A stretch of DNA of 64,000 nucleotides, taken from positions 967,061 through 1,031,060 of the forward strand of contig NZ_JAODIW010000006.1 of NCBI RefSeq assembly GCF_026586625.1. The letters run 5' to 3'. Below, in pieces: positions 20,897 to 31,409 of the stretch; within the stretch, counting starts at the first letter, position 1, and the number at the start of each line of letters is the position of its first letter. The notes below the pieces were generated by a model. The model was not told the DNA's origin, searched no databases, and saw only the letters and a list, made by a program, of their open reading frames with translations. Both the position numbers and the translations under genes were made by a program. Origin of the DNA: Halobium salinum. GTDB lineage: Archaea; Halobacteriota; Halobacteria; Halobacteriales; Haloferacaceae.

Positions 20897-22465
20897 ATGA
20901 ACCCCGAGTCGTTACCGTCCACGACCTCCCGCGACCGCCTGCGGGACCTCGCGGCCACCGTCGACACCGACGCCGACGACACCCTCGAAGTCGAAGCCCC
21001 CGCTACCGGCGAGGTCGTCGGCGAGGTACCGGCCTGTACCGCCGCCGACCTCGACCGCGCGGTCGAGCGCGCTCGCGAGGCGCGCCGCGAATGGACAGAC
21101 CGGTCCGCCCGCGCCCGGGCGGCCGTCCTCGAACGCTTCCACGACCGACTGCTCGACCGACGCGAGGAGGCGCTCGACCTCGTCCAGCTAGAGAGCGGGA
21201 AAGCCCGGATGGACGCCATGTCCGAGGTGCTCGACGTGGCGAACACCGCCCGATACTACGCGAACGAGGCCGAGTCGACCCTCGAGTCGGAGGACCGAGC
21301 ACCCGCCGTCCCGGGAGCGACCCGAACCCGCGTCCACCACCGTCCGGTCGGCGTCGTCGGCGCCATCTCGCCGTGGAACTACCCGCTCACGCTCGCGGTC
21401 TCGGACCTCCTCCCGGCGCTGCTCGCCGGCAACGCCGTCCTCCTCAAACCCGACGAGGAGACGCCGTACACCGCGCTGTGGGTGGCCGACCTCCTCCGGG
21501 GCTGTGGGCTCCCCGAGGGACTGTTCCCCGTCGTCACCGGCGAGGGGCCCGAACTCGGCCCCGCGCTCGTGGAGGCCGTCGACTTCGTCCAGTTCACCGG
21601 GTCGACCGCGGTCGGCAAGGAGGTGGCCGAGCGGGCCGGCCGGGAGCTGACCCCCGCCTCGATGGAACTCGGCGGCAAGAACCCCCTGCTCGTCCTCGCC
21701 GACGCCGACGTGGAGAAGACCGCCTCGGGGGCCGTCACGGCCTGCTTCTCGAACGCCGGTCAGCTCTGTATCGCCGCCGAACGCCTCTACGTCCACACCG
21801 ACGTGTACGACGACTTTCTCGACGCCTTCGTCGGCGCGACCCGCGACCTCGACCTCGGCGTCGGCTACGACTACGACGCCGAGATGGGGTCGTTGCAGAA
21901 CGCAGACCAGCTCTCGAAGACCCGTGAGCACCTCGACGACGCCGTAGAGAAGGGTGCCGAGGTCCTGACCGGCGGTCGCGAGCGGCCCGACGTGGGACCG
22001 TACGTCCACGAACCGACCGTCCTCACGGGCGTCACCGAGGAGATGACGCTGTACCGCGAGGAGACGTTCGGCCCCCTCGTCGCCGTCTACGAGGTCGACG
22101 ACGTGAAGGAGGCGGTCCGACGCGCCAACGACTCCCCCTACGGGCTCAACGGGAGCGTCTGGACCGAGGACGAACGGCTCGGCGAGCATGTCGCCGAGCA
22201 TCTGGAGTGCGGGACGGTGAACGTCAACGACGCCTACCTCGCGACGTGGGGCGCCGTCGACGCGCCGATGGGCGGGATGAACGACTCGGGGCTGGGCCGA
22301 CGCCACGGCCCCGAGGGGCTGTTGAAGTTCACCGAGAGTCAGACCGTCGCCGTCAACGACGGTCCCGTCCTCGGCGGGTCGCCGAGTGGGTTCCCCGGGG
22401 CGTGGTGGGAGCGCGGGATGACCGCGTACCTCCGGGCCCGCCGGAAACTGGGGTGGTCGAAGTGA
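20897..22465 (+). CDS. NAD(P)+-dependent aldehyde dehydrogenase (succinic-semialdehyde type)
   Basis: 522 residues. ALDH landmarks: PWNYPL, the glycine-rich FTGSTAVG, the catalytic Glu in MELGGKNP, the nucleophilic Cys in NAGQLCIA and EETFGPLVAVY near the C-terminus. Closest in feel to succinate-semialdehyde dehydrogenases, though the substrate is uncertain. The stop codon overlaps the start of the next gene (GTGA), so the two are translationally coupled. The partner is a fatty-acyl-reductase-like SDR, suggesting that the pair interconverts a long-chain acyl group, aldehyde and acid. ATG 20897 starts the conserved N-terminus. Confidence 0.9.
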   Translation: MNPESLPSTTSRDRLRDLAATVDTDADDTLEVEAPATGEVVGEVPACTAADLDRAVERAREARREWTDRSARARAAVLERFHDRLLDRREEALDLVQLESGKARMDAMSEVLDVANTARYYANEAESTLESEDRAPAVPGATRTRVHHRPVGVVGAISPWNYPLTLAVSDLLPALLAGNAVLLKPDEETPYTALWVADLLRGCGLPEGLFPVVTGEGPELGPALVEAVDFVQFTGSTAVGKEVAERAGRELTPASMELGGKNPLLVLADADVEKTASGAVTACFSNAGQLCIAAERLYVHTDVYDDFLDAFVGATRDLDLGVGYDYDAEMGSLQNADQLSKTREHLDDAVEKGAEVLTGGRERPDVGPYVHEPTVLTGVTEEMTLYREETFGPLVAVYEVDDVKEAVRRANDSPYGLNGSVWTEDERLGEHVAEHLECGTVNVNDAYLATWGAVDAPMGGMNDSGLGRRHGPEGLLKFTESQTVAVNDGPVLGGSPSGFPGAWWERGMTAYLRARRKLGWSK

Positions 22466-23553
22466 CGACCGTCTTCCTCACCGGCTTCCCCGGCTTTCTG
22501 GGGTCGGCCCTGCTCGGCCGCCTGCTCGACCGCTACGACGACGAGGTCGAGTTGGCGTGTCTCGTGCAGTCGAAGTACCGCGACGACGCCGAGGACAGAG
22601 CGAGGAGTATCGCCGGCGACGACTGGGACGAGCGCATCGCGCTGTACGAGGGCGACATCACGGAGGGCGACCTCGGCCTCGACCCCGACGAGTACGCGGA
22701 CCTCGAACTCGACACCGTCGAGGTGTACCACCTCGCCGCCGTCTACGACGTGGGGGTGAGCGAGGCGGTCGGAAAGCGCGTCAACGTCGACGGAACCCGC
22801 CACGTGTTGCACTTCGCCGAGAACTGCCCCGACCTGCGGCGCTTCCAGTACGTCTCGACGTGCTACGTCTCCGGCCGCTACGACGGGCTGTTCACCGAGT
22901 CGATGCTCGAAGAGGCCGGCCCGTTCCACAACCACTACGAGTCGTCGAAACACGAGGCGGAGGTCCTCGTCCGCGAGGCGATGGACGAAGGGCTCCCCGC
23001 AACCGTCTACCGGCCGGCCATCACCGTCGGCGACAGCGAGACCGGCGAGACCCAGAAGTACGACGGCCCGTACTACGTGCTCCAACTCCTCCTGCGGCAG
23101 GGCGACTACGCGCTCACCCCGGCGATGCTCGGCTCCTCGGGCGTCGAGGTGAACGTCGTCCCCCGGGACTTCGTGGTCGACGCCATCGACGAACTGAGCG
23201 CGATGGAGCGCTCGGAAGGTGTCACCTATCAGTTGGCAGACCCCGCGCCCGCCACGGCGAGCAAGCTCCTCCGGCTGTTCGCCGACGCCGCGGACACCAC
23301 GCCTGTCCCGGTGCCGATGACCCGCGGGCTGGCGAAAGGGGCGTTCCACCGGGTGCCCGAACTTCGCGAGCGCGTGGCCGTCGAGCCCGCCACGCTGGAC
23401 TACTTCACGCATCCGACGCGCTACACCTGCGCGAACACGGTGCGTGACCTGCGGGGGACGGACGTCGAGTGTCCACCTATCGAGACCTACGCGGCGACGC
23501 TGGTCGAGTTCATGCGGGCGAACCCCGACATCGACCCCGACGCGATGACCTGA
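22462..23553 (+). CDS. Extended SDR / fatty acyl-CoA (thioester) reductase-like protein
   Basis: 363 residues. An N-terminal Rossmann motif, TGFPGFLGSALL, and the catalytic Y-x-x-x-K in YESSKHEAE mark an extended short-chain dehydrogenase. The DI(T)EGDLGL and YHLAAVYD segments are typical of the NAD_binding_4 (male-sterility/thioester reductase) branch, which reduces acyl thioesters or handles long-chain substrates. GTG 22462 overlaps the ALDH stop by 4 bases (GTGA). No carrier protein or adenylation domain is attached, so it may act on acyl-CoA. An epimerase-like role is the alternative. Confidence 0.8.
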   Translation: MTTVFLTGFPGFLGSALLGRLLDRYDDEVELACLVQSKYRDDAEDRARSIAGDDWDERIALYEGDITEGDLGLDPDEYADLELDTVEVYHLAAVYDVGVSEAVGKRVNVDGTRHVLHFAENCPDLRRFQYVSTCYVSGRYDGLFTESMLEEAGPFHNHYESSKHEAEVLVREAMDEGLPATVYRPAITVGDSETGETQKYDGPYYVLQLLLRQGDYALTPAMLGSSGVEVNVVPRDFVVDAIDELSAMERSEGVTYQLADPAPATASKLLRLFADAADTTPVPVPMTRGLAKGAFHRVPELRERVAVEPATLDYFTHPTRYTCANTVRDLRGTDVECPPIETYAATLVEFMRANPDIDPDAMT

Positions 23554-23619
23554 GGCGGTCGCCCGCCGGCCGCCGCGGCCGCCGTGCTCGGTGCGGCCGT
23601 CGCGGTCGCCGCGGTCGCC

Positions 23620-24789
23620 TCACCGGTCGTCGCGGTCGTCGCCGCCGTCGCCGGCCAACTCGTCGGCGATGCGCTCGGTGTCGTCGTCGCCGAGCGCGGA
23701 CTCGGCGAGCAGGTGACCGCCGATGGTGGCCGGGCTGATGACGCTGTCGGCGCCGGCCCGGCGGAGCTTCTCGACGTTCTCGCGGTTGGTCGCGGCGGCG
23801 ACGATTCGAACGTCGGGGTTGAGCTCCCGGGCGGTCAGGATGGTGAGTGCGTCCTGAGCGTCGTCGTTGGTCGCGACCACGACCGCGCGGGCCTCCGAAA
23901 TCTTGGCGCGGTGGAGCGGCTCGTCGTCGCTCGGGTCGGCGGCGAACGCGTCGACGCCGCGCTCGCCGAGGTGGCGGACCTTCTCCGCGTCCTCGGTGAC
24001 GACGAGAAACGGGATGGCGTCGTCGAGGAGTTCTTCGAGTATCGGTTCCGTGAGGTCCCCGTAGCCGAGCACGAGGACGTGATTCTCCAGCAAGTCGAGT
24101 TGTGAGTCGGTCATACCTCCGAGTACCTTGGTGAGTCGGGCTTCGATGGCGGGCGTCAAGAGGACACCGAGGGCGACGGCGAACGACGCGACGGAGACGA
24201 CGAGCACGCTCGCGGCGAACAGCTTCGCCCCCGGGGTCGCCGGCGTGATGTCGCCGTACCCAACGGTGCTGGCCGTGACGAGCGTGAACCAGAAGGCGTC
24301 CACGAGGTTGTCCACGCCGGGAAAGTCCTCGCGCAGGGCGAACGTCCCGACCGTGCCGTACGCCTGAGCGCCGACGATGGCGACGAGCGCGGCCAGCTGC
24401 GTCGGCGTCAGGTCGAGGTCGCGGTCGAAGCGCCGGTAGTTGAGTAGCGTGACGACCAGGCCGACCAGCGACAGCACGACCAGCGGGAAGGAGTACGGAC
24501 TGGACTGCAACAGCCCCTGTGCCGCCGTCAGGGGGAGCAACACGACGGCCATGTACCAGCCGGCCCGGTAGCCGCCGCGGAGCGCGTACACGCCGGTCAA
24601 GAGGAGGAACCCCGTCAGCGTCCCGGTGAACCCGACGGTGTCCCGAACGACCGGCGGGACGAACTCGGCGAGCGGGCCGCTCGCGGTCGTCGTGATGGCG
24701 ACGACGCCCGTCACGACCGACAGCACCGCGGCGACGGCTGTGAACAACACCGTCGCCCGCGCGCCGAGCCACTCCCGACTGACTTCCAT
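23620..24789 (-). CDS. Potassium channel with TrkA-N (RCK) regulatory domain
   Basis: 389 residues. Four to five N-terminal hydrophobic segments lead to a pore loop with the K+ selectivity filter TVGYGD (~residues 174-182) and a final inner helix. A cytosolic RCK/TrkA-N domain follows (~230-345) with a Rossmann nucleotide site in LVLGYGDLTEPI and the strands VVVATNDD and IVAAATNREN. The extra helices before the pore pair set it apart from minimal two-helix channels. ATG 24787-24789 is preceded by a clear TATA box; upstream in-frame residues are antisense to the divergent gene. It faces the paired RCK-C membrane proteins across 90 bases. Confidence 0.92.
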   Translation of the reverse strand: MEVSREWLGARATVLFTAVAAVLSVVTGVVAITTTASGPLAEFVPPVVRDTVGFTGTLTGFLLLTGVYALRGGYRAGWYMAVVLLPLTAAQGLLQSSPYSFPLVVLSLVGLVVTLLNYRRFDRDLDLTPTQLAALVAIVGAQAYGTVGTFALREDFPGVDNLVDAFWFTLVTASTVGYGDITPATPGAKLFAASVLVVSVASFAVALGVLLTPAIEARLTKVLGGMTDSQLDLLENHVLVLGYGDLTEPILEELLDDAIPFLVVTEDAEKVRHLGERGVDAFAADPSDDEPLHRAKISEARAVVVATNDDAQDALTILTARELNPDVRIVAAATNRENVEKLRRAGADSVISPATIGGHLLAESALGDDDTERIADELAGDGGDDRDDR

Positions 24790-24812
24790 ACCGTCCGCTG
24801 GTCGCGGCTTCG

Positions 24813-24820
24813 TATAAAAG
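24813..24820 (-). promoter_or_regulatory. TATA box of the K+ channel gene
   Basis: On the minus strand the element reads CTTTTATA, ending 24 bases before the ATG at 24789, so the transcript is probably leaderless. Confidence 0.65.
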
Positions 24821-24852
24821 GCTCTGGAGACAGTTCCCGACGACGATAGGTG

Positions 24853-24860
24853 TTTATACG
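24853..24860 (+). promoter_or_regulatory. TATA box of the RCK-C pair/SAMP1 operon
   Basis: TTTATACG lies 20-27 bases upstream of the ATG at 24880 and mirrors the channel promoter on the other strand. The two divergent promoters are separated by only ~30 bases, so a shared regulator could control both. Confidence 0.6.
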
Positions 24861-24879
24861 CCGAGTGACAGCCCCGAGT

Positions 24880-26145
24880 ATGGCTGGCGCCTCGCTCCCG
24901 GTAGAGATTCTCTTCGGAATCTATCTGGGGGTCCTCACCGGCATCGTCCCGGCGCTCATCGCCGGGACGCTCGGCTTCGTGTTCAAGTACTTCACCGACG
25001 TCTCCATCCCCGGCTTCGGTGTCATCGTCCTCGCGCTCGCGGTCGCCGGCGTCAACGGCGGCCTGCTCGCGCTCGCGGACCCGGAGATCGTCCAGTCCCA
25101 GCACGGCGTCGCGCTCGTCGTCGCCATCCTCGTCGTCCTGATGCTCACCCTGTACGCCCACGCACAGGGGGACAAACTCGGCGGCGGCGCCCCGCGCCGA
25201 CTCACTCTCAAGTCACTCGCCGAGCGCACGCTGTCGACGGACGTCGTGGAACTCGTCGGCGGCCGCGGGCAGGTCCGCGTCACCGTTGCCGGCGAGGTCG
25301 GTGACGTGGAGGGGTACCCGTCGCTCCCCGCCGACCTCCGAGCGGCGATTCGCGAGGGGGAGTGGACGTTCCCCGCCGACGTCCCCCTCGCCGAGTTGGA
25401 GTCCCGCCTCGCCGACCGCCTCGCCGAGGACCACGACCTCGCGGACGTACAGGTTCGGCTCGACGAGCGCGCGCGGGCGACGGTCCACGCCGCCCCGCCG
25501 GTCGGCGGCTTCTCGAAGCGCGTGCCGAGCGGGAAGCGCGCCGTCTCCGTCGAGGCGCTCCTCCCGAGCGGGCTCGCCCGCGACGACGAGGTCCGCGTCG
25601 TCACCGACGGTGGCACGGTCGCAGGGACGGTCCTGAGTGCGAAACTCGCCGCCACGAGCCCCGGGACCGGCAGAGACGACGGCCCTACCTCGGCCGCGGA
25701 CGACGTCGCGACCGACGGCGGCGTCGACGAGGGGGAATCCGCGTCGACGACGGGGCCGGCCGACCCGGCGGTCGAGGGCGGTGAGGGCCGCGTCGCGCTC
25801 GCGGTCGACCGCCGGGACGCCGAGACCCTGCTCGCGGCCGACGGCGCGCGACTGGTCGTCGGCGCCCGCGGCACCCGCCGGGAGTTCGAACTGGCCGCCC
25901 TCCTCAGGCGGGCGGGCAACCGGTTCCGTCGGGTTTCGGTCCGCGAGGGCGGCCCCCTCGACGGGACGACCATCGGCGAGGCGTCCGTTCGCGAGAGCTA
26001 CGGCGTGGGCGTCCTCGCCGTGAAGCGCGGCAACGGGCGCTGGCGCTTCGACCCCCACGGGAGCACCGAACTCGGCGCCGCCGACGAGTTGTTCGTGGTC
26101 GGCCCCCGTGACGCGCTGGAAGCGCTCTCGGAGGTGGCGGCGTGA
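24880..26145 (+). CDS. Membrane protein with cytosolic C-terminal RCK_C (TrkA-C) domain, first of a pair
   Basis: 421 residues. Three N-terminal helices (~7-32, ~41-61, ~70-92) are followed by a soluble region with the element EWTFPADVPLAELESRLADRL, a linker rich in Asp/Gly/Thr (~260-295), and a C-terminal RCK_C/TrkA-C domain (~325-418: FRRVSVREGGPLDGTTIGEA, ADELFVVGP). RCK_C domains bind small ligands in K+ transport systems, but there is no pore filter or TrkA-N nucleotide site here. The stop overlaps the start of the next, paralogous gene. Role inferred: a regulator or membrane anchor of cation transport. Confidence 0.8.
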   Translation: MAGASLPVEILFGIYLGVLTGIVPALIAGTLGFVFKYFTDVSIPGFGVIVLALAVAGVNGGLLALADPEIVQSQHGVALVVAILVVLMLTLYAHAQGDKLGGGAPRRLTLKSLAERTLSTDVVELVGGRGQVRVTVAGEVGDVEGYPSLPADLRAAIREGEWTFPADVPLAELESRLADRLAEDHDLADVQVRLDERARATVHAAPPVGGFSKRVPSGKRAVSVEALLPSGLARDDEVRVVTDGGTVAGTVLSAKLAATSPGTGRDDGPTSAADDVATDGGVDEGESASTTGPADPAVEGGEGRVALAVDRRDAETLLAADGARLVVGARGTRREFELAALLRRAGNRFRRVSVREGGPLDGTTIGEASVRESYGVGVLAVKRGNGRWRFDPHGSTELGAADELFVVGPRDALEALSEVAA

Positions 26146-27593
26146 GTGTCTTCCTGTCGGCGATTGCGACGCTCGTTTCGCTCCCGATGCAGGCGGCCGA
26201 CCCCGTCGCCGGCACGCCCGAGACGCCACAGGCGATGGTCGCGTCCGTGCTCGGCTACCTCCTCCTGTCGGCGGCGACGACCTTCCTCGTCGCGCTCGTC
26301 TACCGGTGGTACTTCCGCGAGCGGGTCGGCGAGGGCGTGGCCGCGCTCGTCGGGGTCAGCGCCGTCGCTACCGTCCTCCAGACGGCGAAGCTGAGCTCCC
26401 TGACGGGTCCCGGCTCGGCCGAGCTGTTCACCCTCGAGAGCGCCCTGTTCAACGTTCTCGCCATCGGCGCCGCCCTCGCGGCCGCGCCGGTCGGTCTCCG
26501 CGTCGGCGACGCCGCCGGTTCGAACCTCTTCTCCGTCGCCGCGGTCCGCGACCTCGACGGCGACCTCGGGGCGGTCGTCCGGTCGGTCGGCCGCGTGACG
26601 ACCGTCGAGTTGCCCGAGGAGGTCGCCGACATGGAGAGCTACGACCCCGTCCCGGAGTCGACGAAGGACGCGCTCGCCGGGAAGACGTTCACCTTCCCCC
26701 GGCGGCTCGACCAGGCCGACCTCCGCGAGCGCCTCGTGACCCGCCTCAAGGAGGACTTCGGCGTCGGTCACGTCGACGTCGAACTCGCCGCGGACGGCGA
26801 GGTGACGTACCTCGGCGTCGGGAGTCGCCTGCGCGGCATCGGCCCGACCCTCGCCCCGAGCACCGCGGCGGTGGCGGTCAGAGCCGACCCGCCCGCCGGC
26901 GCCTCGCCGGGGGACGTCGTGCAGGTCTGGGAGACCGGGACCGGGTCGGGGAACGGTGGGTCGACGAACGGTGGGTCGACGAACGGCGAATCGGCGGGCA
27001 AGAGGTCGGCAAAAGGGAAATCGACGGGCGACACCGGTACGGACGACGGGCCGGACCGCCTCCTGACCGCGGAGCTGCGGGGGGTCGACGGTGACGTGGT
27101 CACCCTCGCGGCCGACGAGGCCGACGTAGCCTCGCTCGACGGCGACGGCCCCTACCGGCTCGTGACGCTCCCGGCCGAACCGCAGGCCGACCGGGAGTTC
27201 GCGTCGCTGTTGCGCGCGGCCGACGAGACGATGGGCGTCCTGACGGTCGCGGCGGGGAGCGCGCTGGTCGGCGGACGCGTCGGCGACCTCGACGGGACCG
27301 TCGTCGCGGTGAAGCCGGCGTCGGGGTCGGCCACGGCCGTACCACCTCGCTCGCGTACGCTCGCCGCCGCCGACACGCTGTACGTCGTCGCCCGACCCGA
27401 GACGGTTCGGCGACTGGAGACGGAGGCGTCGACGCCGGCGACCGCGCCCGGGGACGTGGATTCGGACTCGGGGTCGGACTCGGACTCGAACACGGATACG
27501 ACCGACGACGGGAGCGGTGCCGGCGCCGGCACCGACCCCGACGACCGGCCCCGCCGCGAGACGCAATCCTCAACTCCGGGGACGGAGGAGTGA
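26142..27593 (+). CDS. Membrane protein with RCK_C-like domain, second of the pair
   Basis: 483 residues, paralogous to the preceding protein. Three N-terminal helices (~28-52, ~60-80, ~93-113), the shared element FTFPRRLDQADLRERLVTRL, a Ser/Gly/Asn-rich linker with direct DNA repeats (GGTGGGTCGACGAAC, ~26955-26985), and a C-terminal RCK_C-like part (~355-435, ADTLYVVARPE). The acidic Ser/Asp tail is low-complexity. GTG 26142 overlaps the upstream stop (GTGA), implying coupled synthesis and probably a heteromeric complex of the two paralogues. The gene ends 4 bases before SAMP1. Confidence 0.75.
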   Translation: MSVFLSAIATLVSLPMQAADPVAGTPETPQAMVASVLGYLLLSAATTFLVALVYRWYFRERVGEGVAALVGVSAVATVLQTAKLSSLTGPGSAELFTLESALFNVLAIGAALAAAPVGLRVGDAAGSNLFSVAAVRDLDGDLGAVVRSVGRVTTVELPEEVADMESYDPVPESTKDALAGKTFTFPRRLDQADLRERLVTRLKEDFGVGHVDVELAADGEVTYLGVGSRLRGIGPTLAPSTAAVAVRADPPAGASPGDVVQVWETGTGSGNGGSTNGGSTNGESAGKRSAKGKSTGDTGTDDGPDRLLTAELRGVDGDVVTLAADEADVASLDGDGPYRLVTLPAEPQADREFASLLRAADETMGVLTVAAGSALVGGRVGDLDGTVVAVKPASGSATAVPPRSRTLAAADTLYVVARPETVRRLETEASTPATAPGDVDSDSGSDSDSNTDTTDDGSGAGAGTDPDDRPRRETQSSTPGTEE

Positions 27594-27597
27594 CCGT

Positions 27598-27885
27598 ATG
27601 GAGTGGAAGCTCTTCGCGGACCTCGCCGAGGTCGCCGGCGACCGGCACGTGGTCGTCCCGGTCGACGGCGAGGACGAGGGGACGGCGACGGTCGGCGACG
27701 CGCTCGACGCCCTGCTGGAGGACCGCCCGGCGCTTCGTGACCGCGTGCTCGACGACGACGGCGAACTGCGCGAGCACATCAACGTGCTCCGCGAGGGGAC
27801 GAACGTGTTCAACGAAGACGGACTGGAGACGGCCGTCGACGCGGGCGACGAACTTGCGCTGTTCCCGCCCGTGAGCGGCGGGTAA
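27598..27885 (+). CDS. samp1: Ubiquitin-like small archaeal modifier protein 1 (SAMP1/MoaD family)
   Basis: 95 residues with a beta-grasp fold. The N-terminus MEWKLFADLAEVAG and the C-terminal LALFPPVSGG match haloarchaeal SAMP1, whose diglycine tail is adenylated by UbaA and then joined to target lysines or used as a sulfur carrier for molybdopterin. It begins 4 bases after the RCK_C pair, so the three are probably co-transcribed. A small insertion (GEDEGT) distinguishes it from the best-known homologue. ATG 27598 is the only start giving the conserved N-terminus. Confidence 0.9.
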   Translation: MEWKLFADLAEVAGDRHVVVPVDGEDEGTATVGDALDALLEDRPALRDRVLDDDGELREHINVLREGTNVFNEDGLETAVDAGDELALFPPVSGG

Positions 27886-27973
27886 GCCCCTCTCGCGAGC
27901 GGCGAGTCCCCCGGCGAGCGGCGGGTTCACACACCACCACAAGGCCTTTTCTGCCGTCGCGGAACCGGAACGC

Positions 27974-29029
27974 ATGGACGAACCGAACGGTCCGGCGGAC
28001 CCGGTCGACGCGGCGCTCGGCCGCGCGTTCCCCGACCGGTCGGTCGCCGAGGTCGGCGCGACCGGCCCCTCTTGGAACGACAGTAACCGGACGGTCCGCG
28101 TCGGCTTCGACGACGGCAGGGCGGCGTACCTCAAACTGAACGTCGAGGGCGACGGGCGCAGACTCGCCCGCGAGCGGGCCGTCCTCGACTACGTCGGGGC
28201 GAACGCCGACGTGTCGGTGCCGGCGGTTCTCGACGCCGACACCGACGGGACGATACCGTATCTCGTCACCGAACCCGTCGGCCGGAGCTTCGTTCGAGCG
28301 TGGGGCGACGCCGGCGAAGCCCGGCGGGAGCGCCTCGCCCGCGCGATGGGTCGCTCGCTCGCGGGGGTCCACGAACTCCGCTTCGACGCGCACGGGACGG
28401 TCGTCGGGCGCGGCGACGCGGTCGGCGCGGGGAGAGACGGGGGTCCGGGACTCGACCTCGACCGGGCGCCCTGGACGGACGTGCTCGTTCGGACCGTCGA
28501 GGAGATGCGGGCGATGGCCCCCTCAGCCCGCTTCGACGACCACTTCGACCGGGTCGTCGACGCCGCCGAGACGAACCGGGACCTGCTGAACGAGGCGCCC
28601 GCAGTGCTCCTCCACGGCGACCCGGCGATGCCGAACTGCGTGCTGACCGATGGGGGTGCCGACGGCGCCGTCGACAGTTCCGCCGGCGCCGACACCGACA
28701 CCACCACCACGGTCGGCTTTCTCGGCTGGGAGATGGCCCACGTCGGCGACCCGGTTCGGGACCTCTACCGCGCCCGCGACCAGGGGTTCGACGGGCTGCG
28801 CGACCCCGCCCCCGAACCGGGCGTCGACGCGTTCTTCGACGGCTACCGGGAGCGAGCCGACGGCTTGCCGGACGGCTACGAGGCGCGACGCCCGGTGTAC
28901 GAAGCCGTCAGACACCTCGGCAACTCGGGGTACTTCCCGAAGCTCGCCGAGTACGTCGACGAACCGGAGGAGGAGCTCGCGGCGTGGGTCGACGCCGAGA
29001 TGGACCGGCGGCTGGCGGCGGTCACCTGA
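27974..29029 (+). CDS. Aminoglycoside-phosphotransferase-fold kinase with missing metal Asp
   Basis: 351 residues of the APH/choline-kinase-like family. The ATP-site Lys is in AYLKLNVEGDG, the catalytic loop is HGDPAMPN (H-G-D-x4-N), and the following metal loop reads FLGWEMAHVGDP. Family members have IDWE or LDWE here; codon 251 encodes Gly (GGC) instead of Asp. The rest of the fold is intact, so the protein may be inactive, use another residue, or reflect a G-for-A change. The substrate is unknown; relatives phosphorylate small alcohols, sugars or antibiotics. It starts 88 bases after SAMP1. Confidence 0.85.
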   Translation: MDEPNGPADPVDAALGRAFPDRSVAEVGATGPSWNDSNRTVRVGFDDGRAAYLKLNVEGDGRRLARERAVLDYVGANADVSVPAVLDADTDGTIPYLVTEPVGRSFVRAWGDAGEARRERLARAMGRSLAGVHELRFDAHGTVVGRGDAVGAGRDGGPGLDLDRAPWTDVLVRTVEEMRAMAPSARFDDHFDRVVDAAETNRDLLNEAPAVLLHGDPAMPNCVLTDGGADGAVDSSAGADTDTTTTVGFLGWEMAHVGDPVRDLYRARDQGFDGLRDPAPEPGVDAFFDGYRERADGLPDGYEARRPVYEAVRHLGNSGYFPKLAEYVDEPEEELAAWVDAEMDRRLAAVT

Positions 29030-29041
29030 CGCCGCTCGGGG

Positions 29042-30673
29042 TCAGAACTGGCCGCGGTCGACGACGGCCACGTCACAGTCGACGCCTCGCAGTCGCTCGA
29101 ACGTCGGCGGCGAGACGAACCGCGAGGCGGCGCTGCGGTCGCCGCTGGAGCCGAGCACGACGAGGTCGTAGCTCGCGGCGTTGGCGTCGATGAAGTCCTT
29201 CACGTCCGTCCGAGCCACTCTCGTCTCGACGGTGCCGCGCTCGGTGACCGTCTCGACGAGGTTGGCGAGGCGACTCTCGGCGGGCCGGCGCTCCACCTCC
29301 GAGGAGATGCAGGTGCAGACGCTGACGCTCCCGTTCGGCCCCGCGAGGCGCGTGGCGAAGTCTATCATGGCGTGGGCAGTGTCGCCGGGGCGGGCGACGG
29401 TGACGAGCACGCGTCGCCAGCGTTCGGCGCCGGTCGTCGACCGGAAGGCGACGGCGTCGAAGGGGCCGCGGAAGACGGTGCGGACGAACTCCGAGAGCGA
29501 ACCGCGGTCCTCCTCGTAGGGGGTGACGACGAGGTCGCAGTTGGTCGCGCGGGCGGTCTTGATGGTCGACTTCCCCGGGTCGCCGCTGGCGACGACGACC
29601 TCACAGGGGACGCCGAGGCGCGTCCGGACCCGCCGGGCCTGTGCCTCCAACCGGTCCGCGGCCTCGGCGGCGGCGCGGCGGGCGGCCCGGTCCTCGACGG
29701 ACTCGACCATCGGCTCGTCGGCGTTCTCGGCGGTCTCCTCGACGGTCGTCTGGTCGCCGCCGTCGTCGTCGGACTCGCCCGCCCCGTCGCCGTCGTCGGC
29801 CATCGCCGCCTCGATGTCGGCGGCGCTGCGGCTCTGTGGACGCTCGCCGGCGAGCAGTTCCCGTTCGGCGGCGGCGCGCTTCTCGTCGTCGACCACGTCG
29901 AGGAGGACGACCTTTCCGGCCTCGTGGGCGGCCGCGAGCCGGGCGCCGAACAGGGCCGTCAGGGTCGCGGTCTCGCCGCGCATCGGGACGAGCACGTGGT
30001 CGTCGCCGTGAGTCGTCCCGTACAGCAGTTCGGCGCGCTGCTCGTAGAACTCCCGGCGCCACACCGAGAAGACGAGCGCGACGACGGAGGTCGACAGCGC
30101 GACGCTCACGGTGTAGACGAACGCCGACTCGAACGGCAGGTCGAGGACGGCGACGTCGACTTCGCCCGTGAGAAGCACGAGCAGCGCCGTCGAGAACGCG
30201 GTGGGGAGCTCGAAGTCGAACGCCCACGTCGCGGCACCGACCAGAAACACCGCGAGGGCGGCGGCGCCGGCGTGAGCGCCCAGCGCGTTCGGCGGCTCGT
30301 GGTAGACGTACGTCGCCGAGAGCACCAGCGCGACCCAGCCACAGAGGGCGCCGAGGGTCATCCCGCCGACGAACGTCCGGGGGGAGGCGTACCGACCCTC
30401 CGGGTCGGCGAACAGCGTGTAGGTGCCCGACGCGAGCGGCGGGAAGAGCAGAAAGGAGAGTTCGACGAGCGCACTCGAGAGGAACGTGACGAGCGCGATG
30501 AGCAACGGGACGACGAGGAGGACGGTGAGGTGGATGAGGTTGTCCGTGTTCTCCACCCAGCGGCCGAACTCCGCGACCTCCCGGCGTTCGAGGCGCCGGA
30601 TGCGTCGTCCAATCTCGGCCACGCGCCGTCCGACTTCGGCGAGCCGCCGCTCGACCCCGTCGACCCCGTCCAT
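29042..30673 (-). CDS. HPP membrane domain fused to duplicated Usp (universal stress protein) domains
   Basis: 543 residues. A predicted coiled-coil N-terminus (~1-40, RRL/RRI repeats) precedes about six membrane helices (~45-215) with the HPP signature PPLASGTYTLFADPEG. Two cytosolic Usp-like domains follow (~225-410 with an acidic insert, and ~415-540 ending LVVLGSSGDRSAASRF, the ATP-loop GxxG-S/T type). HPP proteins transport nitrite or similar ions in plastids and bacteria, and fusion to Usp suggests nucleotide-regulated transport. The start is 7 bases from the uridine phosphorylase stop on the same strand, so the two are co-transcribed. Confidence 0.82.
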   Translation of the reverse strand: MDGVDGVERRLAEVGRRVAEIGRRIRRLERREVAEFGRWVENTDNLIHLTVLLVVPLLIALVTFLSSALVELSFLLFPPLASGTYTLFADPEGRYASPRTFVGGMTLGALCGWVALVLSATYVYHEPPNALGAHAGAAALAVFLVGAATWAFDFELPTAFSTALLVLLTGEVDVAVLDLPFESAFVYTVSVALSTSVVALVFSVWRREFYEQRAELLYGTTHGDDHVLVPMRGETATLTALFGARLAAAHEAGKVVLLDVVDDEKRAAAERELLAGERPQSRSAADIEAAMADDGDGAGESDDDGGDQTTVEETAENADEPMVESVEDRAARRAAAEAADRLEAQARRVRTRLGVPCEVVVASGDPGKSTIKTARATNCDLVVTPYEEDRGSLSEFVRTVFRGPFDAVAFRSTTGAERWRRVLVTVARPGDTAHAMIDFATRLAGPNGSVSVCTCISSEVERRPAESRLANLVETVTERGTVETRVARTDVKDFIDANAASYDLVVLGSSGDRSAASRFVSPPTFERLRGVDCDVAVVDRGQF

Positions 30674-30680
30674 GGGCCGC

Positions 30681-31409
30681 TCAGGCGAGCTCCGTCACCG
30701 CGTCGAGGGTGATGGCGATAGCGCGCTCGACGTTGTTCTTCGCCTTCTCGGGCAGCTCCTCGTCGGAGTCGGCACCCTTCTGCGTGCCGGCGACGAGGTT
30801 GCCGTCGACGGTGCAGATGGCGCCCGCGCGCATCCCGCGCCGGCGCGCCAGCGAGAACACCGTGGCCGCCTCCATCTCGATTGCGAGCAGGCCGGCGTCG
30901 TTCCAGTCGGCGACGAACTCCTCGGACTCGTTGTAGAAGGCGTCGTCGGAGACGATGGGGCCGACGTGGACGTCCTCGTCGTTCTCCTCCGCGGCGTCGA
31001 CCAGCGACGTGAGCACCTCGTAGGTCGGCACCGCCGGGTACACCTCGGACTCGTAGCGCTTCGAGGTGCCCTCCTCCTTCGCGGCGCCGGTGGCGACTAT
31101 CATGTCGCCGATTTCGATATCCTCCTGGAGCGCGCCGATGGTGCCGACCCGGACGACGGTGTCGACGCCGACGTTGCACAGCTCCTCGATGGCGATGGCG
31201 GCGGAGGGACAGCCGATGCCCGTCGAGCAGATGGTGAGGGGGACGCCGTCGTAGGTGGCGTTGACGACCTTGTACTCGCGGTTGGCGGCGACCTCCTCGA
31301 CGTTCTCACACTGCTTCGCGATTCGGTCGACGCGGCCGGGGTCGCCCGGTACGAGCGCGATGTCGTTCACGTCGCCGTCCTCGACGAGCAGGTGGGGCTG
31401 TTTTGCCAT
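30681..31409 (-). CDS. udp: Uridine/nucleoside phosphorylase
   Basis: 242 residues of the NP-I (PNP_UDP_1) family. Conserved features: LVPGDPGRVDRIA (phosphate site), STGIGCPSAAIAIEEL, RVGTIGALQ and the ribose-binding EMEAATVFSLA. It splits a nucleoside with phosphate into base and ribose-1-phosphate. Length is as expected (about 240). It follows a PfkB kinase and a membrane protein on the same strand and lies 7 bases upstream of the HPP-Usp gene. Uridine is the most likely substrate given the GTIGALQ motif, but related specificities cannot be excluded. Confidence 0.9.
   Translation of the reverse strand: MAKQPHLLVEDGDVNDIALVPGDPGRVDRIAKQCENVEEVAANREYKVVNATYDGVPLTICSTGIGCPSAAIAIEELCNVGVDTVVRVGTIGALQEDIEIGDMIVATGAAKEEGTSKRYESEVYPAVPTYEVLTSLVDAAEENDEDVHVGPIVSDDAFYNESEEFVADWNDAGLLAIEMEAATVFSLARRRGMRAGAICTVDGNLVAGTQKGADSDEELPEKAKNNVERAIAITLDAVTELA

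Follow-up and report, generated by a model that had tools for sequence, protein, structure and literature searches.

A paired membrane-anchored RCK_C protein system beside a Kch-like potassium channel in haloarchaea, most likely serving K+/osmotic homeostasis

Background

RCK_C domains occur mostly in proteins that control ion and osmolyte transport. The RCK_C domain of MthK has a similar fold to that of the regulators named below and binds Ca2+. In haloarchaea, c-di-AMP is made by DacZ. The RCK_C domains of KtrA, KtrC, CpaA, KhtT and BusR bind c-di-AMP (PMC8517857). In Haloferax volcanii this nucleotide is essential and tied to osmoregulation, and the identification of its targets was deferred to future work in 2019 (PMC6741144). 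HVO_2617 of the same organism has been described as a three-pass membrane protein of 403 aa with a C-terminal TrkA domain, belonging to composite gene family 1329 (Genome Biol. 2018, PMC5992828); the passage on it in that paper gives no partner protein, channel or SAMP1 context, ligand or experimental function.

Here we describe a locus of Halobium salinum that encodes two paralogous proteins of this kind, A and B. HVO_2617 appears to be an ortholog of A: the Haloferax A proteins are about 403 aa long and have the same layout. A literature search found no naming of HVO_2618 and no functional study of A or B, in agreement with the original prediction, which had called the system uncharacterised. 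We conclude that A and B are a real, widespread and uncharacterised two-gene membrane-anchored RCK_C system that most likely serves K+/osmotic homeostasis.

Locus organization and promoter region

The window, i.e. the whole 64,000 nt stretch of DNA that was analysed, contains a four-gene locus at positions 23620-27885, in which a K+ channel gene on the minus strand is followed by genes A, B and SAMP1, all on the plus strand (Table 1). Gene B starts with GTG and overlaps the stop codon of A by 4 nt. The channel and A diverge from a region of 90 bp that holds a TATA box for A at 24853-24858 (+) and one for the channel at 24813-24819 (-), each about 25-27 nt upstream of its own start codon. This spacing fits leaderless haloarchaeal promoters and is kept in 118 divergent loci, where an AT-rich hexamer is found at -22 to -33 for A in 114 and for the channel in 113. 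Both the overlapping stop and start codons and the back-to-back TATA boxes had been predicted originally, and both are confirmed.

Compared with Haloferax and Halogeometricum loci, in which the gene order is UDP, USP, channel, A, B, SAMP1, SDR and ALDH, the channel-A-B-SAMP1 block is inverted relative to its flanks (window 20900-31409). In the window, ALDH and SDR genes come before the block and an APH-like kinase, USP and UDP genes after it, and the inversion breakpoints lie just outside the four genes. The APH-family phosphotransferase gene (27974-29029), located between SAMP1 and the USP gene, had no match in the related loci scanned. Positions 29042-30673 encode a fusion of an HPP-type membrane region with universal stress protein domains, an arrangement that recurs beside the A-B locus.

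Table 1. Features of the channel-A-B-SAMP1 locus (window coordinates)
Feature	Position	Strand	Description
Kch-like K+ channel, 389 aa	23620..24789	-	TM region, TVGYGD filter, RCK_N (TrkA_N), no RCK_C
Divergent promoter region	24790..24879	.	two back-to-back TATA boxes; position kept in 118 loci
Gene A, 421 aa	24880..26145	+	three TM helices, D1, RcpC-like barrel, RCK_C
A transmembrane helices, residues 8-103	24901..25188	+	AlphaFold model
A domain D1, residues 131-205	25270..25494	+	holds WTFP...RL...RL element (25363-25422); no recognised family
A domain D2, residues 206-345	25495..25914	+	weakly RcpC/CpaB-like, with disordered insert
A RCK_C, residues 346-421	25915..26142	+	Pfam 1.5e-12; ligand-pocket positions conserved
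Gene B, 483 aa	26142..27593	+	paralog of A, same domain order, acidic disordered tail
B copy of shared element (TFTFPRRL...ERL...RL)	26685..26750	+	sequence
B RCK_C, residues 361-432	27222..27437	+	pocket helix/strand segment six residues shorter than in A
SAMP1 ubiquitin-like modifier	27598..27885	+	4 nt after B; NF041918

Domain architecture of A and B

The paralogy of A and B extends over almost the entire proteins (hhalign E 6e-34), and AlphaFold models of both proteins contain three transmembrane helices, an alpha/beta domain (D1), a barrel-like domain (D2) and a RCK_C domain. The RCK_C domain of A is recognised directly by TrkA_C (PF02080; 47.7 bits, Pfam cutoff 27) and matches the structures of KhtT (Z 13.7, rmsd 1.4 over 78), BusR (Z 12.5) and SaKtrA (Z 11.3). 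B scores 18.8 bits on its own, under the same cutoff; its RCK_C domain is clear in the family, where the best ortholog reaches 1.2e-8, and in the predicted fold, which matches the RCK_C domain of PH0236 (Z 12.4, rmsd 1.7 over 73). RCK_C homology thus holds by HMM in 31 of 32 A-family proteins and 26 of 28 B orthologs. TrkA_N was found neither in single A and B proteins nor in their families, and the selectivity filter (TxGYG/GFG) is absent from the alignments of both. Both families conserve a F/W-T-F-P...RL...RL element, located in D1. The shared element, the three N-terminal helices, the C-terminal RCK_C domain and the lack of a pore filter and of TrkA_N had all been read from the window DNA by the original prediction, and all stand.

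D1, which we call the WTFP domain, gave no noteworthy sequence match in Pfam or the PDB. When D2 segments were compared with PF16976 (RcpC/CpaB), 10 of 19 matched at E<=0.5 (best 3.4e-4) and the first of them scored 15.2 bits, under the cutoff of 28.8; among A orthologs, 11 of 32 matched at E<=0.5, the best at 6.4e-4. The structure match of D2 to RcpC is only Z 7.9. A competing weak similarity links D2 to the 1B barrel of SMUBP-2/IGHMBP2 (E 6e-6 with the B profile), PF21138 was matched in 6 of 28 B proteins, and no PDB entry was retrieved with the D2 profile built from A and B together. We read D2 as a RcpC-like or general beta-barrel domain and do not claim family membership for it. The structure-search matches were filled by RCK_C, so that the folds of the TM region, D1 and D2 are barely represented among them.

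The transmembrane segment is the most conserved part of A, with a mean pairwise identity of 0.577 versus 0.422 for RCK_C. It contains invariant Gly, Pro and Tyr residues, and H94 and D98 are conserved near the end of TM3. Such conservation would fit a reading in which A and B themselves form the permeation path, as a heteromeric three-TM transporter or channel that is ligand-gated by its own RCK_C domains, with the K+ channel only a functional companion; the occurrence of the pair at sites with no channel nearby would fit as well. We consider this unlikely, given that neither protein has a selectivity-filter motif or matches a known transporter family (Pfam, single proteins and families) and that the TM region of B is poorly conserved (identity 0.337). 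A regulatory, sensing role is preferred here.

Distribution and loss of the pair

Of the 99 relatives, 73 contain both genes intact, and in none was one intact gene found alone. They are adjacent and on one strand in every locus of two overlapping sets (72/72 loci from the 99 relatives and 80/80 named loci), usually with the 4 nt overlap. Comparisons within genera and families show that loss of the pair has been repeated and joint. For example, two genomes (G066 and G088) retain the channel, SAMP1 and B fragments with no intact A or B; another (G045) retains the channel, an A stump and SAMP1; a fourth (G092) lacks A and B cleanly, with the channel and SAMP1 side by side; and a fifth (G096) has SAMP1, KhtT, KhtU and the channel, with A-B gone. 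In G045, G066 and G088 the remnants lie between the channel gene and SAMP1. Where genomes carry diverged second copies, these are again A-B pairs. A and B are therefore an obligate pair, in line with the coupled pair of the original prediction, and this is the firmest of our findings. The identical phyletic sets, constant adjacency and co-loss point to two subunits of one complex, and a hetero-oligomer of A and B is very probable. The A-B mirror-tree correlation is the highest obtained (0.73; 0.50 for A and the channel), although the control gene tracks phylogeny poorly and the measure is usable only for A-B. In a survey of 393 genomes of the phylum, all full-length A proteins found belonged to the haloarchaeal order; elsewhere just the RCK_C part matches.

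Several loci depart from the usual arrangement. Second, diverged A-B pairs (L195-L202, L102) occur in several genomes of other families with no channel or SAMP1 nearby, and that of L102 adjoins ParA/MinD-like and tetrapyrrole methylase genes. In two Salinigranum-type loci (L044, L106) gene A is tandemly duplicated (A, A', B), and the second A of L044 matches in two pieces. In L057 (5325-7922, G025), B apparently lacks its RCK_C end: the B-profile match ends at position 349 of 394 and the frame continues to 865 aa. In L191 (5666-6850, G066) the whole locus is in decay, with a channel gene broken by stop codons, A lost and B decaying.

The potassium channel and its neighborhood

The channel matches Ion_trans_2 (2.1e-14) and TrkA_N (2.6e-30) in Pfam and has a selectivity filter that is invariant in 19 orthologs. 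Against NCBIfam PRK10537 it scores 190 bits, under the cutoff of 425. A Pfam search found no TrkA_C in it at E<=1. The earlier description of an RCK-regulated K+ channel thus holds for the filter, Ion_trans_2 and TrkA_N, but of the RCK domain it has the RCK_N half alone. The channel and the pair carry complementary halves: RCK_N without RCK_C in the former, RCK_C without RCK_N in A and B.

The original prediction had proposed to check whether the pair and the channel are conserved neighbors, and they are: in 50/72 and 76/80 loci a divergent channel gene lies no more than 800 bp from A, and 71 of the 73 genomes with A-B encode the channel at some position, so the pair does not occur mostly without it. 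The channel is also present in 17 of 26 relatives without A-B, which indicates that it does not need them. It is not adjacent to A in about 20 of the 72 loci, and for most of the loci lacking the channel the upstream genes, judged from their sequences, have no relation to K+. Where the locus is rearranged, K+/osmotic genes turn up repeatedly, dacZ-mscS (see Ligand) among them. In two loci of one genus (L099, L101), KhtT and KhtU lie between the channel and A, and in another (L088) A-B adjoins a sodium/hydrogen-exchanger-type antiporter, a KhtT-like gene and a tandem-RCK channel. Since the H. salinum genome contains 24 RCK_C matches, one or two adjacencies to K+ genes could be due to chance, and we treat them as supporting, not decisive.

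Part of the adjacency reflects older block synteny, as UDP, USP and SAMP1 genes travel with the block. The channel, A-B and SAMP1 could then be an old haloarchaeal block without a shared function, A-B acting in some other membrane process, e.g. envelope biology, to which the weak RcpC/CpaB similarity of D2 would point. The channel and SAMP1 do remain adjacent after A-B loss, and the A-channel mirror-tree value of 0.50 comes with a poor control gene. However, K+ antiporter and RCK channel genes stand beside the pair in independent rearrangements, the pair is kept with the channel across several families, and the established association of RCK_C with transport control argues in the same direction. 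Synteny without function is rather unlikely in our judgment; a function of A-B in K+/osmotic homeostasis is probable.

SAMP1

The gene after B encodes a true SAMP1, with 132.9 bits against NCBIfam NF041918 (cutoff 60) and a C-terminus of ...VSGG, and in 53/72 and 67/80 loci SAMP1 lies within 400 bp downstream of B. A shared transcript of A-B and SAMP1 is plausible. The original prediction had gone further and suggested SAMP1-type modification as a possible link. Adjacency is the sole link found, and SAMP1 is present in 99/99 genomes, including every one that lacks A-B; the main text of an archaeal Ubl gene-context comparison is silent on potassium and TrkA (PMC2948915). It is very improbable that the mechanism involves modification of these membrane proteins (A, B or the channel) by SAMP1, and SAMP1 is probably a neighbor only. 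A second SAMP1-like gene (111.5 bits) is present in the same genome (G000:C11:786665-786931).

Ligand

The RCK_C domain of A retains the pocket positions I/L365, G366, V370, R371, V376, V/I378 and P392. R371 is kept in 54/56 and P392 in 56/56 close A orthologs, and in 25/32 and 30/32 proteins, respectively, across the wider order; these residues and the hydrophobic pocket positions are in part general to the RCK_C fold and not diagnostic. In B, the six-residue deletion in the pocket segment is present in 50/50 aligned proteins. The kept pocket of A and the deletion in B suggest that the RCK_C domains form an asymmetric A:B dimer in which one half-pocket is complete.

The fold by itself does not tell which ligand is bound, since the Ca2+-binding MthK shares it. 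A-B might regulate K+ systems through Ca2+, Na+ or another nucleotide, considering that the RCK_C domains of MthK and PH0236 match as well as those of c-di-AMP receptors and that the pocket positions are partly general. Against this, R371 of A aligns with an Arg in the KtrA and KhtT sequences and with a His in MthK; three Halonotius-type genomes (L050/L151, L051, L145) have dacZ-mscS next to the channel; and several close RCK_C relatives are known to bind c-di-AMP as their small-molecule ligand. A different RCK_C ligand is on balance somewhat improbable, and c-di-AMP is our tentative candidate. A diadenylate cyclase domain is present in 97/99 genomes.

Proposed function

We propose that A and B are two obligate subunits of one membrane-anchored haloarchaeal sensor. 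Each subunit would consist of three TM helices with a cytoplasmic C-terminus, the novel alpha/beta D1, the beta-barrel D2 and RCK_C, and the RCK_C domains would pair as A:B, with the complete ligand-pocket segment in A only. On binding a ligand, most plausibly c-di-AMP, the membrane complex would alter its conformation and thereby control how active K+ transport proteins are. The neighboring Kch-like channel, which has the RCK_N gating half without the RCK_C half, is the foremost candidate target; in some lineages other RCK/KhtTU-type systems may be targets. The original prediction had suggested that the pair may form a hetero-oligomeric sensor acting on the channel; its interpretation is partly supported.

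This explanation as a whole, an obligate membrane-anchored K+/osmotic homeostasis sensor set by a ligand, with the channel as first candidate target, seems to us evenly balanced. Direct regulation of the neighboring channel by A-B is possible, at a little short of even. The most specific version, in which A:B is a haloarchaeal c-di-AMP receptor and a split gating module that supplies the RCK_N-only channel with its missing RCK_C half, placing sensing in separate, asymmetric membrane-anchored subunits, is decidedly unlikely on present evidence. If true, it would be an unusual RCK layout for K+ transport control, with sensing and pore placed in different membrane proteins. Widely conserved in haloarchaea and specific to them, A-B is a candidate c-di-AMP target in organisms for which a genetically tractable model exists. 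The two proteins are good candidates for sensors, so far missing, through which a second messenger such as c-di-AMP would be coupled to potassium balance.

Comparison with known systems

With KhtT, KtrA/KtrC, CpaA and BusR, A shares the RCK_C fold (Z 9.7-13.7) and the pocket positions, and A-B is proposed to share their role in K+/osmolyte control. In contrast to these proteins, A-B has no RCK_N or wHTH domain; it has a three-TM anchor, domains D1 and D2, a deleted pocket segment in B and, as we infer, a heteromeric pair. TrkA/KtrA-type RCK regulators have a nucleotide-binding RCK_N Rossmann domain, whereas A and B have no TrkA_N. D2 resembles RcpC/CpaB of Flp pilus assembly weakly in sequence (best 1.8e-4), but it falls under the Pfam cutoff where scored, its structure match stays at Z 7.9 and no pilus genes were noted at the A-B locus. 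With Kch and the RCK-gated K+ channels (PRK10537, MthK, GsuK) the channel in the window shares the GYG filter and RCK_N, and it is closest to the E. coli Kch model PRK10537. In MthK and GsuK a single chain contains both RCK_N and RCK_C, whereas here the RCK_C domains sit in the neighboring A-B pair.
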